Shown here one piece after another: positions 16,108 to 35,640 of a DNA stretch of 53,305 nt. A program made the translations under genes and the position numbers. The stretch is from Fibrobacter succinogenes. Its GTDB lineage: Bacteria > Fibrobacterota > Fibrobacteria > Fibrobacterales > Fibrobacteraceae. Every line of letters starts with the position of its first letter. The stretch's first letter is position 1. The stretch is from the NCBI GenBank assembly GCA_902762795.1, contig CACWPM010000039.1, positions 1 through 53,305 of the forward strand. Direction: 5' to 3'. The notes under the pieces were generated by a model. The model made no database searches. It was not told where the DNA came from and saw only the letters and a program-made list of their open reading frames with translations.

Positions 16108-16181
16108 GGGAGCGAAAATACAGCCATACGACCTGACTTGACAAAACTAACGAAAATAGTGCTTTTTTGTTCATTCACTCA

Positions 16182-16210
16182 TTGACTTTCAATTTAAAAT
16201 TTTATATATT
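16182..16210 (+). promoter_or_regulatory. Promoter of the DUF3800 leader RNA and gene
   Basis: TTGACT (16182-16187), a 17-nt spacer and TATATT (16205-16210). Predicted start near G16217, which is the first paired base of the leader hairpin. Confidence 0.75.
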
Positions 16211-16216
16211 ATTTAT

Positions 16217-16276
16217 GAACTGGTCGAGAGACCCTGGTTCAACCTAACTCGGCGGGCAGACTGTCCCGCCATTTTT
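16217..16276 (+). ncRNA. Structured leader RNA upstream of DUF3800, ending in a terminator
   Basis: The transcript would open with hairpin 1: GAAC (16217-16220) with GTTC (16237-16240), an internal loop, then GGTC-GAGA-GACC with a GNRA tetraloop (16222-16233). A 10-nt linker follows, then hairpin 2, GGCGGG (16251-16256) with CCCGCC (16265-16270) and a U-rich tail, an intrinsic terminator. GGAGGAGG and the DUF3800 start follow at once. Several classes of conserved RNA upstream of DUF3800 genes were described by comparative genomics (Weinberg and co-workers, DUF3800 motifs), and this looks like a member or relative. Whether it acts as a cis-regulator or as an RNA partner of the protein is unknown. 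Confidence 0.65.
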
Positions 16277-16289
16277 ATTTGGAGGAGGA

Positions 16290-16970
16290 ATGAGTTGCCT
16301 AAGTATTTTTGTTGATGAAAGCGGGGATTTCGGCCCCTACGACACCAAAACACCATACTACATTATTACCATGTTAATCCACGACCAAGATAAGGACATC
16401 CTTAAACACGTCCAGTCGTTGGACAGCAAAATTCAATCCTTGGGTTACGAAAAAGGATTTGTCATCCACACAGCTCCGCTAATTCGTCGAGAAGAAGTCT
16501 TCGCCAATGAGTCACCAAACAAAAGAAGATCTCTTTTTGCAAGTCTATTCTTCTTTACCATAAAAAGTCCAATCCAATACAAAACATTCATCTTTGAGAA
16601 AAAATTTTTTTCAGACGCATTTTCCCTTGAAGGAAGAATGGCAAAAGAACTGTCCTTTTTCATCCGAAACAACATCATATTTTTCCAAAAATTCAACAAT
16701 GTTGTCCTATATTATGACAATGGACAAACGGAATTAAACCGAATTCTAAATCTAGTTCTATCCACAGAACTTTCCACTTACTCTTATAAAAAAGTCTCTC
16801 CTAAAGACTACAAGCTCTTCCAAGTAGCCGATTTAATCTGCACACTCAAACTACTTGACCTAAAATGTGAACACAATGAATTGTCAAGGTCCGAGCAATT
16901 GATATTCCATAGCAAACGAGAACTTAGGAAACAGTTTATCAAACCTATTTTAAAAAAACGGTTTGATTAA
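16290..16970 (+). CDS. DUF3800 domain protein
   Basis: 226 residues. Family marks: IFVDESGDFG at the N-terminus (D9, E10, S11, G12), YYDNGQ near residue 145, and KLFQVADLICTL near residue 180, the Q-x-A-D-L motif. DUF3800 proteins have an RNase H-like fold with conserved acidic residues, so nuclease activity is plausible but not shown here. The start has a strong GGAGGAGG site. It lies behind a structured RNA with a terminator and is followed after 56 nt by a DUF2971 gene, probably one operon. AT-rich codon use compared with the housekeeping genes suggests acquired DNA. Confidence 0.85.
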   Translation: MSCLSIFVDESGDFGPYDTKTPYYIITMLIHDQDKDILKHVQSLDSKIQSLGYEKGFVIHTAPLIRREEVFANESPNKRRSLFASLFFFTIKSPIQYKTFIFEKKFFSDAFSLEGRMAKELSFFIRNNIIFFQKFNNVVLYYDNGQTELNRILNLVLSTELSTYSYKKVSPKDYKLFQVADLICTLKLLDLKCEHNELSRSEQLIFHSKRELRKQFIKPILKKRFD

Positions 16971-17026
16971 TATTCATCCTGTAATTTCGCAAGTCTTCAC
17001 AACAATATCAAAAAGTGATTAGTAAT

Positions 17027-17803
17027 ATGGAAGAAAAAAGCAATATTGAGCCAATCGACATCCCTCCCATTTTATACAAATATATGCCCGAACAGCCTTA
17101 TGCGTTAAACACGATAATAACAAGATACTTTTATTTTTCTCCTATTACAGATTTCAACAATCCTTTTGAGGGAAAATTCTTTGACAACGAACAATATAGC
17201 AAAGAAGATCTTCGAAACTATTTTAGAAATATTTGTCATATCTCAGAAGAGTACATGACATCTTTAGAAAATATCTTTCTTAATGATGAAAATTGGTTAA
17301 TTGCTCTAAAGGATAGATTAATACAGGAAAAAGAATCTGTTGAAAAAACTTTTGGAATTCTATGTCTGAGCGAGACTGAAAAAGACATTCTTATGTGGAG
17401 TCATTACGCAAATTCACACAAAGGTATTGTGATTGGAATTGATTCAAAAAATTTATGGCAAAACATGACATCTTCCAAACCTGGAGGTCTTTTGGAACCT
17501 GTGCAATACAAAAAAGACTATCCCACGGTCAAATTTTTTAAGGATCAAAAAGATGTTGTAGACAAATGGTTCTTTACCAAATATGAAGACTGGAAATACG
17601 AAAAAGAGTGGAGAGCAGTTCATAAGCCCGGGCTCATTCAATTTCCAAAAGAAATCATTAAATCCGTTTATTTTGGAGCAAAATTCGATTTAAATAAGCA
17701 AGCGTTTTGGATGAGTCAAATTAAAGACTCTGGAATACACCCCCAATTTTATCAAGCTAAATTAAACAAGTCTTCTTATAAAATCGACTTTAAACCCATA
17801 TAA
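17027..17803 (+). CDS. DUF2971 domain protein
   Basis: 258 residues from the ATG at 17027; an in-frame GTG at 17015 is possible, and neither has a good ribosome site. Family pattern is clear: LYKYMP...FYFSPITDFNNPFEGKF (residues about 17-50), ILCLSETEKDILMWSHYA then HKGIVIGID (about 112-140), and YEKEWRAVHK (about 190). DUF2971 proteins are uncharacterised and common in accessory and defence-rich regions. The gene follows DUF3800 without its own visible promoter, so the two are likely co-expressed. AT-rich like its neighbour. Molecular function is unknown. Confidence 0.85.
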   Translation: MEEKSNIEPIDIPPILYKYMPEQPYALNTIITRYFYFSPITDFNNPFEGKFFDNEQYSKEDLRNYFRNICHISEEYMTSLENIFLNDENWLIALKDRLIQEKESVEKTFGILCLSETEKDILMWSHYANSHKGIVIGIDSKNLWQNMTSSKPGGLLEPVQYKKDYPTVKFFKDQKDVVDKWFFTKYEDWKYEKEWRAVHKPGLIQFPKEIIKSVYFGAKFDLNKQAFWMSQIKDSGIHPQFYQAKLNKSSYKIDFKPI

Positions 17804-17823
17804 TGAGCTACAACTATACATTT

Positions 17824-17866
17824 GCCCTACATTTGAAATAATCATCAAATGTAGGGCATTTTTTTT
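17824..17866. terminator. Terminator between DUF2971 and convergent DUF2513
   Basis: A 13-bp inverted repeat GCCCTACATTTGA / TCAAATGTAGGGC followed by T8 on the plus strand. The T-run overlaps the 3' end of the convergent DUF2513 gene. Confidence 0.85.
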
Positions 17867-18234
17867 CATAAACCTAGTTTAGATTTTGCCAATGTTTTCA
17901 AATATTCCATCAACAAAGAAATAGAAAAAGATATTCCTTCTTTCAGTATTTTATCTTTTGCCATTTTCCAAATACCGTCATCACGGGAAAGACTTAAAAA
18001 CTCATATCCATTCCAGGTTAGATTTATATCGGACACTTCTGAAAAACCACTTTCAGGAATATAACCGGCAGTCCCTGTTAAAAAGCCTTCATTAATGAGC
18101 AAATTCAAATGCTCAACCACCATCGCTTTATCCTTCCCTTCTAAAAAAGGTTCTGATTCCCAGGTTCCGCATGCCGGTTTACGTTTTTCAACATCTAGAA
18201 GGATTGTTCGGACCAAATCCATATTTCGTGTCAT
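17866..18234 (-). CDS. DUF2513 domain protein
   Basis: 122 residues. It begins MTRNMDLVRTILLDVEKR and contains VVEHLNLLINEGFLTG, INLTWNGYEFLSLSRDDGIW and an ending LKTLAKSKLGL, all matching DUF2513. The first 75 residues look like a winged helix; the C-terminal helices are of unknown role. Such proteins are small, common in phage and accessory DNA, and uncharacterised. It is convergent to the DUF3800-DUF2971 pair and shares a terminator with it. Probably a transcriptional regulator-like protein, at low certainty. Confidence 0.8.
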   Translation of the reverse strand: MTRNMDLVRTILLDVEKRKPACGTWESEPFLEGKDKAMVVEHLNLLINEGFLTGTAGYIPESGFSEVSDINLTWNGYEFLSLSRDDGIWKMAKDKILKEGISFSISLLMEYLKTLAKSKLGL

Positions 18235-18273
18235 ACCTACTCCTTTATGGTTAAAAATGACACTTTTAAAATA

Positions 18274-18301
18274 AAAAGACCTCCCATCAGAGAGATCTTT
18301 T
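18274..18301 (-). terminator. Terminator after the zinc-ribbon gene
   Basis: Minus-strand stem AAAAGATCTCTC / GGGAGGTCTTTT with a TGAT loop, followed by TTATTTT; it lies about 125 nt past the stop of the gene at 18426. Confidence 0.65.
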
Positions 18302-18425
18302 GATGAAATTCTTATAAATTTAATTCAGCCAGCCAACTGATTACCAAAATATTTTTGGATCAAAACATACTACACAACAATTACAAAAACCGTGTTTTGA
18401 GCTTTATTTCAACATTTAAAATGGA

Positions 18426-18938
18426 TTATTTTATTCTTTGGAAATCACCAAGTTTATCACTCCAAATATACAACTCTTTTGCATTACAATTTTTATCATA
18501 ATGAATTTTGTATTGATCGGAACGTTTTAAACGAGTGAACCCCTCACAAAAACCAATTCCTTTTATTCGATTTCCAGTAGTAATCCATTTTTCACGAATA
18601 TATTTATCAGCATCAATCCCCGCTGAAGATAAAGCACGTCGACAAGCATAGATGTTTGAAAAGCCCAAATCATTTTTGCAATTTTTATCTGCCAAAGCAT
18701 CTTCATCTATTTGTGAAACAGATGACTTCGTACTACGTTCTTTTTGGGAGACCTCTTTATCTGAACTTGAAAATGAAACATAAGCAAAGCCCGCTATAAT
18801 AAGCAATATGAAAAACGCTTTGCCCATAGTAATAGGTTGCTCCCCAATTGTTTTTTCATCCTCTTCGCATTTTGCTCCACACTGTTTGCAGAATTGGCTA
18901 CCAACGTCAAGTTCACAGCCACATTTTTTACATTTCAT
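18426..18938 (-). CDS. Zinc-ribbon, single-pass membrane protein of unknown function
   Basis: 170 residues. The N-terminus has a zinc ribbon (MKCKKCGCELD..FCKQCGAKC, two CxxC knuckles), then one membrane helix (about 38-58, AFFILLIIAGFAYVSF). A Ser/Lys-rich linker follows, and a 90-residue Cys-containing domain (about 80-170) that is not recognised. The layout, cytoplasmic zinc ribbon plus an exported domain, resembles many zinc_ribbon_2 proteins. GGAG lies 7 nt before the ATG. Upstream on the same strand is a structured RNA with its own promoter (19020-19164) which could be its leader. Confidence 0.7.
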   Translation of the reverse strand: MKCKKCGCELDVGSQFCKQCGAKCEEDEKTIGEQPITMGKAFFILLIIAGFAYVSFSSSDKEVSQKERSTKSSVSQIDEDALADKNCKNDLGFSNIYACRRALSSAGIDADKYIREKWITTGNRIKGIGFCEGFTRLKRSDQYKIHYDKNCNAKELYIWSDKLGDFQRIK

Positions 18939-19019
18939 ACATTTTCTCCTTTGGGTACAATAAATTCAAGACCAAAGCATTCGTGCACTAGCCTTATCTC
19001 AAAGAAGATTTCCGCATAC

Positions 19020-19164
19020 AAAAAAGGGCGTGAATCCGGCTTATTGCATTCTGAGGTTCCACTACGACCCTACACTCAACAAGCGCGAACGACCCACGCC
19101 CCAATTGGGACGTGAGCGTTTGCCAACTTATCCCCAGTGTTCATGAATTTAGTGGATTCCAGAA
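19020..19164 (-). ncRNA. Unassigned structured RNA with its own promoter
   Basis: About 145 nt on the minus strand from a strong promoter to a T6 run (19025-19020). The 5' segment pairs with a distant 3' segment (TTCT...CCACTA with TAGTGG...AGAA). Inside are ACACT/AGTGT and a very stable arm, AACG-CTCACGTCCC with GGGGCGTGGG-T-CGTT and an AATT loop. The same GGGCGTGGGT strand can instead pair over 10 bp with ATTCACGCCC directly before the T-run, making a terminator. So two exclusive folds exist, as in a riboswitch or attenuator. It matches no RNA class that I recognise. A zinc-ribbon gene starts about 80 nt downstream. Confidence 0.55.
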
Positions 19165-19167
19165 TGG

Positions 19168-19196
19168 AGAATAAGAGCAAATGCTCCAAATGTCAA
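19168..19196 (-). promoter_or_regulatory. Promoter of the unassigned RNA
   Basis: Minus-strand TTGACA (19196-19191), a 17-nt spacer and TATTCT (19173-19168); start near 19161. One of the best sigma70-type promoters in the window. Confidence 0.75.
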
Positions 19197-19246
19197 TACG
19201 GCATTAAACTTATAAAGCACCTCTTTATACGATTTATAATTTAAAT

Positions 19247-19276
19247 ATCCCTCTATTTTTTCTCAAATAGGGGGAT
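19247..19276. repeat. Inverted repeat in non-coding DNA
   Basis: A 12-bp stem (ATCCCTCTATTT with AAATAGGGGGAT, one G-U pair) and a 6-nt loop. No adjacent T-run, so not a normal terminator. A doubtful 71-residue minus-strand frame overlaps it. Confidence 0.45.
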
Positions 19277-19410
19277 TTCTTAAAAAAAACACAATTTTTC
19301 CCCAAAGCGCCATTTATCCGAGGAAGGTCTATTCCAACTAGGAATGACCTAAGCAGTTCATTTTCAATTAATAAATCTTTGAAGAAGAAATCCCCATAAA
19401 CAGAGTTTTT

Positions 19411-19587
19411 ATGCAAAAAGCATTGTTTATATACGAAACATTGCCGCAATCGTCAAAACAAGAGGTGAATGATTCACAGGGTTTAACTGCATTGAACAAT
19501 TTGAAAAAATCCCGAGGTCGAATTCCAGTCGATTTCTATATGAAAGCAGAACTTGCTGCAGCTAGGGACGAAAAATACAGTCTATAA
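19411..19587 (+). pseudogene. Internally deleted DUF2281/antitoxin-like remnant
   Basis: 58 codons: MQKALFIYETLPQSSKQEVN joins abruptly to GLTALNNLKKSRGRIPVDF and ends AELAAARDEKYSL. The first part resembles the start of DUF2281-type small antitoxins (E-T-L-P-x-x-x-x-Q-E-V). The last part resembles the C-terminal R-G-x-I-P-x-D-F...R-D-E-K-Y tail of such antitoxins. The middle that normally links them is missing. No ribosome site and no toxin partner are visible. Most likely a decayed TA antitoxin; family naming is from memory. Confidence 0.5.
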
Positions 19588-19696
19588 GAATTTCCCTATA
19601 CACAATTTTGAAAAAAGCAAAGTCAAAGCTATTTTGCCGGAAGAGTTTCTTCATCGACTTTCGATTTAGATAAAGCATTCATTTGAAGTTTTGCGC

Positions 19697-19727
19697 AATA
19701 CCGCAACCGTTACGGTTGCGGTATTTT
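19697..19727 (+). terminator. Strong hairpin terminator
   Basis: A perfect 13-bp stem AATACCGCAACCG / CGGTTGCGGTATT with a 3-nt loop, followed by TT. It may serve transcripts from the antitoxin remnant. Confidence 0.55.
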
Positions 19728-19834
19728 GCATTTCAGGGCGGGTGGGCGGCTCCAAGCCGGGCGTTGCGGGTGCGGCGTCTAAGCACCCGCAGTAGGGGTA
19801 GCATAAGACCCGACTAGGGCGGGGTATACAGAAA

Positions 19835-19858
19835 ACGCACACTCATATGAGTGTGCGT
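19835..19858. repeat. Perfect 24-bp palindrome
   Basis: ACGCACACTCAT followed directly by its reverse complement. As DNA it could bind a dimeric protein; as RNA it would have no loop. No regulator or target gene is evident. Confidence 0.5.
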
Positions 19859-19913
19859 GATTATAAGAGCGGGAGTCGGGGCTGAAGCGAGGGGGAGTCC
19901 TCCCCCTCCATAT

Positions 19914-35462: not shown

Positions 35463-35473
35463 GGATCCTCCTA

Positions 35474-35640
35474 ACGGAGGATGACCGTGGCTGCGACGCT
35501 CGCCTTAAAGGGAGTCTCCCAGCGGAGGATGACCATGGACGCGACGCTCGCCTTAAAGGGAGTCTCCTAGCGGAGGATGACCGTGGCTGCTACACTCGCC
35601 TTTTGAGGTTGTCCCTACGCGTTACTCCGAGGATGACAGG
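35474..35640. repeat. 48-bp tandem repeat (about 3 copies) plus dispersed repeat copy 3
   Basis: Units start at 35476, 35524 and 35572 with GGAGGATGACC and share GACGCTCGCCTTAAAGGGAG; the third is diverged at its end. It merges into CCCTACGCGTTACTCCGAGG (from about 35613), related to the dispersed repeat at 7667 and 23762. Confidence 0.8.

Follow-up and report, generated by a model that had tools for sequence, protein, structure and literature searches.

Of the eleven DUF3800 RNA motifs in the catalogues, none has, to our knowledge, an assigned function. The DUF3800 protein is described as having an RNase H fold (PMC10910872). A structured RNA with a known role is found in AbiF-RCd22 (RF03085), a system that came from a catalogued RNA motif, in which the RNA neutralises the protein both in cis and in trans (PMC12373285). 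RNA mimics are also known from phages and include the pseudo-ToxI of phiTE, which is directed against ToxIN (PMC3475682), and the RNA anti-CRISPRs, Racr, which are directed against CRISPR-Cas (PMC10651486). Phage tRNA arrays carry anti-defence tRNAs (PMC11555353, PMC13096335). The locus described here lies in a 53,305-nucleotide stretch of DNA from Fibrobacter succinogenes, which is called the window below. On balance, the evidence leans towards an RNA-protein module that is toxin-antitoxin (TA)-like, probably anti-phage, and for which phages encode RNA mimics.

Layout of the locus and its RNA element

The genes and regulatory elements of the locus are all located on the forward strand. The promoter at 16182–16210 features a −35 box TTGACT and a −10 box TATATT separated by a 17-nt spacer, and it agrees with the consensus at 10 of 12 positions in a promoter scan. 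The initial annotation called this a good promoter, and a −10-like box does recur with unchanged spacing to the RNA in most homologues; by the scan alone, however, the promoter is not above chance, with 8 found in the window vs 10.3 expected. The RNA occupies 16216–16276 and, based on folding, covariation and Rfam, consists of two hairpins and a U-rich tail (fold of −24.3 kcal/mol, z −3.5). Hairpin 1 (16216–16241) features a 10-bp stem with a 2-nt bulge and a GNRA loop, GAGA, and is the part that is retained by solitary phage copies. Hairpin 2 (16251–16270) belongs to an intrinsic terminator at 16251–16279, GGCGGG..CCCGCC and then ATTTTTATTT, which was located by a terminator scan and is supported by covariation. 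The Shine-Dalgarno sequence GGAGGAGG is read at 16281–16288, followed by the ATG at 16290 of the DUF3800 gene (16290–16970, 226 aa). The DUF2971 gene lies at 17027–17803, with an alternative GTG at 17015, and the terminator scan places a strong terminator downstream of it at 17823–17858. The order promoter, RNA, terminator, Shine-Dalgarno, DUF3800 and DUF2971, as first read from the DNA, was borne out by the scans, Rfam and Pfam.

A comparison with Rfam, which the initial annotation had proposed, identified the RNA as RF02975 (DUF3800-XI); it scores 45.9 bits, above the cut-off of 37.8, over the full model (positions 1–48 of 48). The RNA as such is not new because it already is a known Rfam family, and it is present as a single copy in the source genome. 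Weak Rfam matches to PrrF and TeloSII were at chance level. The window also features a 48-nt unit that is repeated 2.8 times in a tandem array at 35468–35602, where there is no Rfam match.

The covariation alignment is made up of 43 RNAs, all from DUF3800 loci. In this alignment 97.8% of the cells are paired and compensatory changes are found at 8 of the 18 pairs (38 compensatory cells), a level that none of 500 shuffles and none of the slid controls reached. The sequence of the aligned RNAs is conserved from end to end. A variable guide-like stretch is absent, and a role as a guide, which had been considered for this RNA, is disfavoured because there is no such segment.

Pairing of the RNA with DUF3800

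The protein encoded at 16290–16970 belongs to Pfam DUF3800 (PF12686, E 1e-9, 39.7 bits vs a curated cut-off of 21). The AlphaFold2 model of the protein has a pLDDT of 93 and a pTM of 0.90, and its best Foldseek matches are RNase HII structures (2dff, E 2.3e-4). VIA-align gave a Z of 7.8 for 1eke, which is moderate (Z under 8), and the identity to the best RNase HII matches is at most 16%, a distant relation. The predicted structure upholds the RNase H-like fold given for DUF3800 in the initial annotation. Residues D9, H60, K104, D143, and D181 are invariant among the clade relatives and E10 is nearly invariant; the DESG that ends strand 1 resembles the DExG motif of RNase HII. A PDB sequence search found no relative, and the PADLOC library that was searched features no DUF3800 family. 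The modelled fold and the conserved acids D9, E10, D143, and D181 point to a putative RNase-HII-like, metal-dependent nuclease.

To collect relatives, the protein was searched against a set with one genome for each species, which gave 41 loci, and against viral contigs, which gave 18 further loci. The hosts of the 41 loci are Fibrobacter, Treponema, Salinivirgaceae, Lachnospiraceae and other Clostridia, Flexilinea, and Parasutterella. In the set collected by protein similarity, which spans several phyla, the RNA lies upstream of all unique intact genes with upstream sequence (45/45), and of 60/60 once loci fetched by the RNA are included; no intact gene of the clade was found without it. The pairing rule is limited to this DUF3800 clade and does not extend to all DUF3800, because proteins outside it carry other Rfam motifs (DUF3800-VI, VII) or no listed RNA.

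The two components are lost unequally. In the Fibrobacter family 20 of 42 RNA sites have no downstream gene of this clade (~15 independent loci when orthologues are merged), and the RNA is retained at 8 broken DUF3800 genes. The sole gene fragment with upstream sequence that has no RNA (L091) has also lost its N-terminus, which includes D9 and E10. An RNA that outlives its protein is what an antitoxin role predicts, judged from these comparisons of sequences, although persistence of the RNA without the gene could reflect slow decay.

The strict pairing also favours a different role, in which the RNA is a required cofactor and forms with DUF3800 an active ribonucleoprotein nuclease for defence or RNA processing, the phage copies then being competing decoys or having some other use. 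The nuclease-like fold of the model agrees with this, as does the presence of other DUF3800 proteins at Cas12a2 and VI-F loci (PMC10910872, PMC12669027). The cofactor role is nevertheless unlikely, if still credible, since the RNA features no variable guide part and its survival after loss of the protein fits an antitoxin more naturally.

Several individual loci feature further arrangements. Tandem RNA units occur at L097 (3488–4663), where a C-terminal DUF3800 remnant with an RNA is followed by an intact unit, and the inner stem of the RNA in the intact unit is re-paired. At L141 (G082:C10) a solitary RNA lies directly downstream of a DUF3800 gene from another clade. Other Fibrobacter DUF3800 genes (L037, L038, L040, L042, L043, and L053) are found with the unrelated DUF3800-VI RNA, in loci of similar promoter, hairpin, U-run and gene order. 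The RNA-DUF3800 unit at L070 (2485–3820) is flanked by four matches to the Acido-Lenti-1 RNA (RF01687), which form two inverted pairs ~1.1 kb apart and may mark sites for recombination in a cassette array. At L080 the next element after the DUF3800 gene, in the same orientation, is a pemK RNA (RF02913, 4935–4989), which suggests adjoining TA-type units. Solitary RNAs at L121, L132, L136, L119, L138, and L133 are located 11–24 nt past the stop codon of a VapC-like or Fic gene and are perhaps the terminators of these genes.

Solitary RNA copies in phage contigs

Over 20 different phage contigs carry the RNA without DUF3800; most of these copies lie in tRNA arrays, and they usually lack a U-run. 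These copies were first detected by exact-pattern scans of viral contigs. Taken by itself, the pattern GGGCTGGNNNNNNNNCCNNGGTCCA is no more frequent than expected by chance, and it was applied only in combination with pairing, loop and tRNA controls. A pattern with a GNNA loop was found in 38 contigs, 6 of which feature DUF3800, while the control with swapped loop letters was found in 2 contigs. A scoring model built solely from the host RNAs of DUF3800 loci assigns up to 65.8 bits to the solitary phage RNAs, and RF02975 is above its cut-off at 14 of the 17 solitary loci tested; phage copies below ~35 bits have collective support and are not individually significant over the whole collection. 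DUF3800 was found in 0 of 35 whole viral records with a solitary RNA. A DUF3800 flag at L389/L390 was rejected as noise (3.9 bits).

A tRNA gene lies within 700 nt of 18 of the 26 unique solitary copies. In a further, separate collection of matches to the pattern, proximity to a tRNA was seen for 1 of 34 matches without the inner pairs vs 18 of 33 with them, and solitary RNAs near a tRNA were always on the tRNA strand where this was tested. The phage set shows covariation in hairpin 1 and also keeps the GNRA loop and the bulge; some phage copies have no clear second hairpin. The neighbouring phage genes include a terminase gene beside L319 and L299-type copies, as well as tail, head-decoration, RNA ligase and kinase-like genes. 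The phage tRNA arrays at L394, L423, L442, and L444 feature a ROOL RNA in addition to the solitary RNA, and those at L448 and L449 feature a tmRNA gene. Plasmids and isolate phages yielded almost nothing, with one distant plasmid match and one partial phage match, and blastn of the short RNA against isolate phages returned chance-level matches only. The literature searched, which did not include the original motif paper (doi 10.1093/nar/gkx699), holds no earlier report of solitary phage copies. In gut bacteria the RNA is constantly paired with DUF3800, and phages carry it alone, often among their tRNA genes; together these observations suggest that DUF3800 is held in check by the RNA and that the phage copies serve to disarm the protein.

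A role as a cis-acting leader only, that is an attenuator bound by DUF3800 for autoregulation, would account for the terminator that lies between promoter and gene, and the sister motif DUF3800-VI is typed as cis-regulatory in Rfam. Cis attenuation, which the initial annotation had listed, is possible in itself, but it leaves unexplained the solitary copies far from DUF3800, which are located in phage tRNA arrays and mostly have no terminator U-run. It also does not account for L121 and L136, orthologous solitary copies that differ by a compensatory change of a C-G to a U-A pair. These points make a leader function alone improbable. It is very improbable that the RNA is a terminator open to re-use, or a mobile hairpin of the REP kind, that spreads independently of the protein. 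Some chromosomal solitary copies do lie just past a VapC-like or Fic stop codon with no clear promoter, but re-use of this kind was rejected since most phage copies have no U-run and yet retain hairpin 1, the GNRA loop and the bulge. In addition, bacterial genomes hold one to three copies of the RNA each, and a phage record almost always holds a single copy.

Variable slot, proposed mechanism and known systems

A comparison of relatives shows that the locus sits in a variable slot (16116–19913) that extends from a conserved lptC-like gene to iorB. Two close relatives share homology up to 16115, after which they feature a RelB/YafQ-like TA pair, named by eye from the protein sequences. The slot is nearly empty in another relative and holds a solitary RNA in genome G126. 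From the TA pair, the near-empty slot and the solitary RNA, the slot is, as far as these alignments go, a site of exchangeable TA-like cargo.

The second gene in the slot encodes a Pfam DUF2971 protein (PF11185, E 2.4e-10) that matches PDC-S31 of PADLOC, a phage-defence candidate family, with an E of 1.4e-47. In homologous loci, where the initial annotation had proposed to look for co-occurrence and covariation, the RNA covaries and co-occurs with DUF3800, but DUF2971 does not accompany them. A single three-part system of RNA, DUF3800 and DUF2971 is hardly tenable: the two genes are on the same strand, 56 nt apart and with no intervening terminator, but DUF2971 stands beside none of ~80 RNA-DUF3800 relatives, it is present in 45 of 168 genomes of the phylum and adjoins the RF02975 RNA only in the window, and the single close relative of this DUF2971 protein (58%) belongs to a genome that lacks both the RNA and DUF3800. 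On this distribution DUF2971 was rejected as a partner candidate, and because the link is unique to the window DUF2971 is probably a separate cargo of the slot, a neighbour rather than a partner.

Among the functions listed in the initial annotation, that of a bound inhibitor is the best fit for the RNA. In the proposed toxin-antitoxin-like module the single promoter would produce the short terminated RNA in excess, and read-through of the terminator would supply a small amount of DUF3800. Hairpin 1 would bind DUF3800 and hold the nuclease inactive, and the nuclease would be released when host transcription or the RNA balance is disturbed, for example by a phage. A phage could counter this with a lone RNA copy, often freed by processing of the tRNA array, that would keep the nuclease bound, while DUF2971 would be separate cargo in the shared variable slot. 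We infer binding, inhibition, toxicity, phage sensing and the anti-defence role. It is tentatively suggested that the lone DUF3800-XI RNAs of phages, mostly in tRNA arrays, inhibit a new family of RNA-neutralised RNase-HII-like toxins. If this is true, DUF3800 proteins and their RNA motifs would constitute a broad class of RNA-antitoxin defence. Together, the invariable pairing, the fact that the protein is lost ahead of the RNA and the lone phage copies lead to a directly testable hypothesis of the RNA as neutraliser, on which phage tRNA arrays would also be carriers of RNA decoys.

The window RNA resembles RF02975 in that it matches 48 of 48 positions above the gathering score and lies upstream of a DUF3800 gene, and the solitary phage copies in tRNA arrays set it apart from what the literature searched describes for this family. 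The DUF3800 protein is similar to RNase HII in its predicted fold and its D-E-D-D acids, and differs in being distant in sequence. It is unlike an RNA-guided nuclease in that its RNA has no guide segment. The order of promoter, RNA, terminator and protein gene is the same as in type III TA systems of the ToxIN type. However, tandem repeats are absent at the locus, where the RNA is a single motif, and the model indicates an RNase-HII-like fold; type III toxins are expected to have the ToxN/AbiQ/TenpN/CptN fold, and the best structural matches of DUF3800 are RNase HII. The locus was not filed as type III TA because its RNA is not a tandem repeat and its fold differs by model, but it may nevertheless function in the way that those systems do. 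Elsewhere in the window, a type III TA locus that had been proposed was not confirmed: the RNA-level Rfam scan of the window shows only a tRNA besides RF02975. AbiF-RCd22 shares with the locus a structured RNA and a terminator ahead of the protein gene; its protein is Abi_2, its RNA is different, and RCd22 features two motif copies where the window RNA has one. As with pseudo-ToxI and Racr, phages carry a lone RNA of bacterial defence type without the cognate protein, although in the present case the RNA and protein are different, the copies are located in tRNA arrays, and the role as a mimic is putative.
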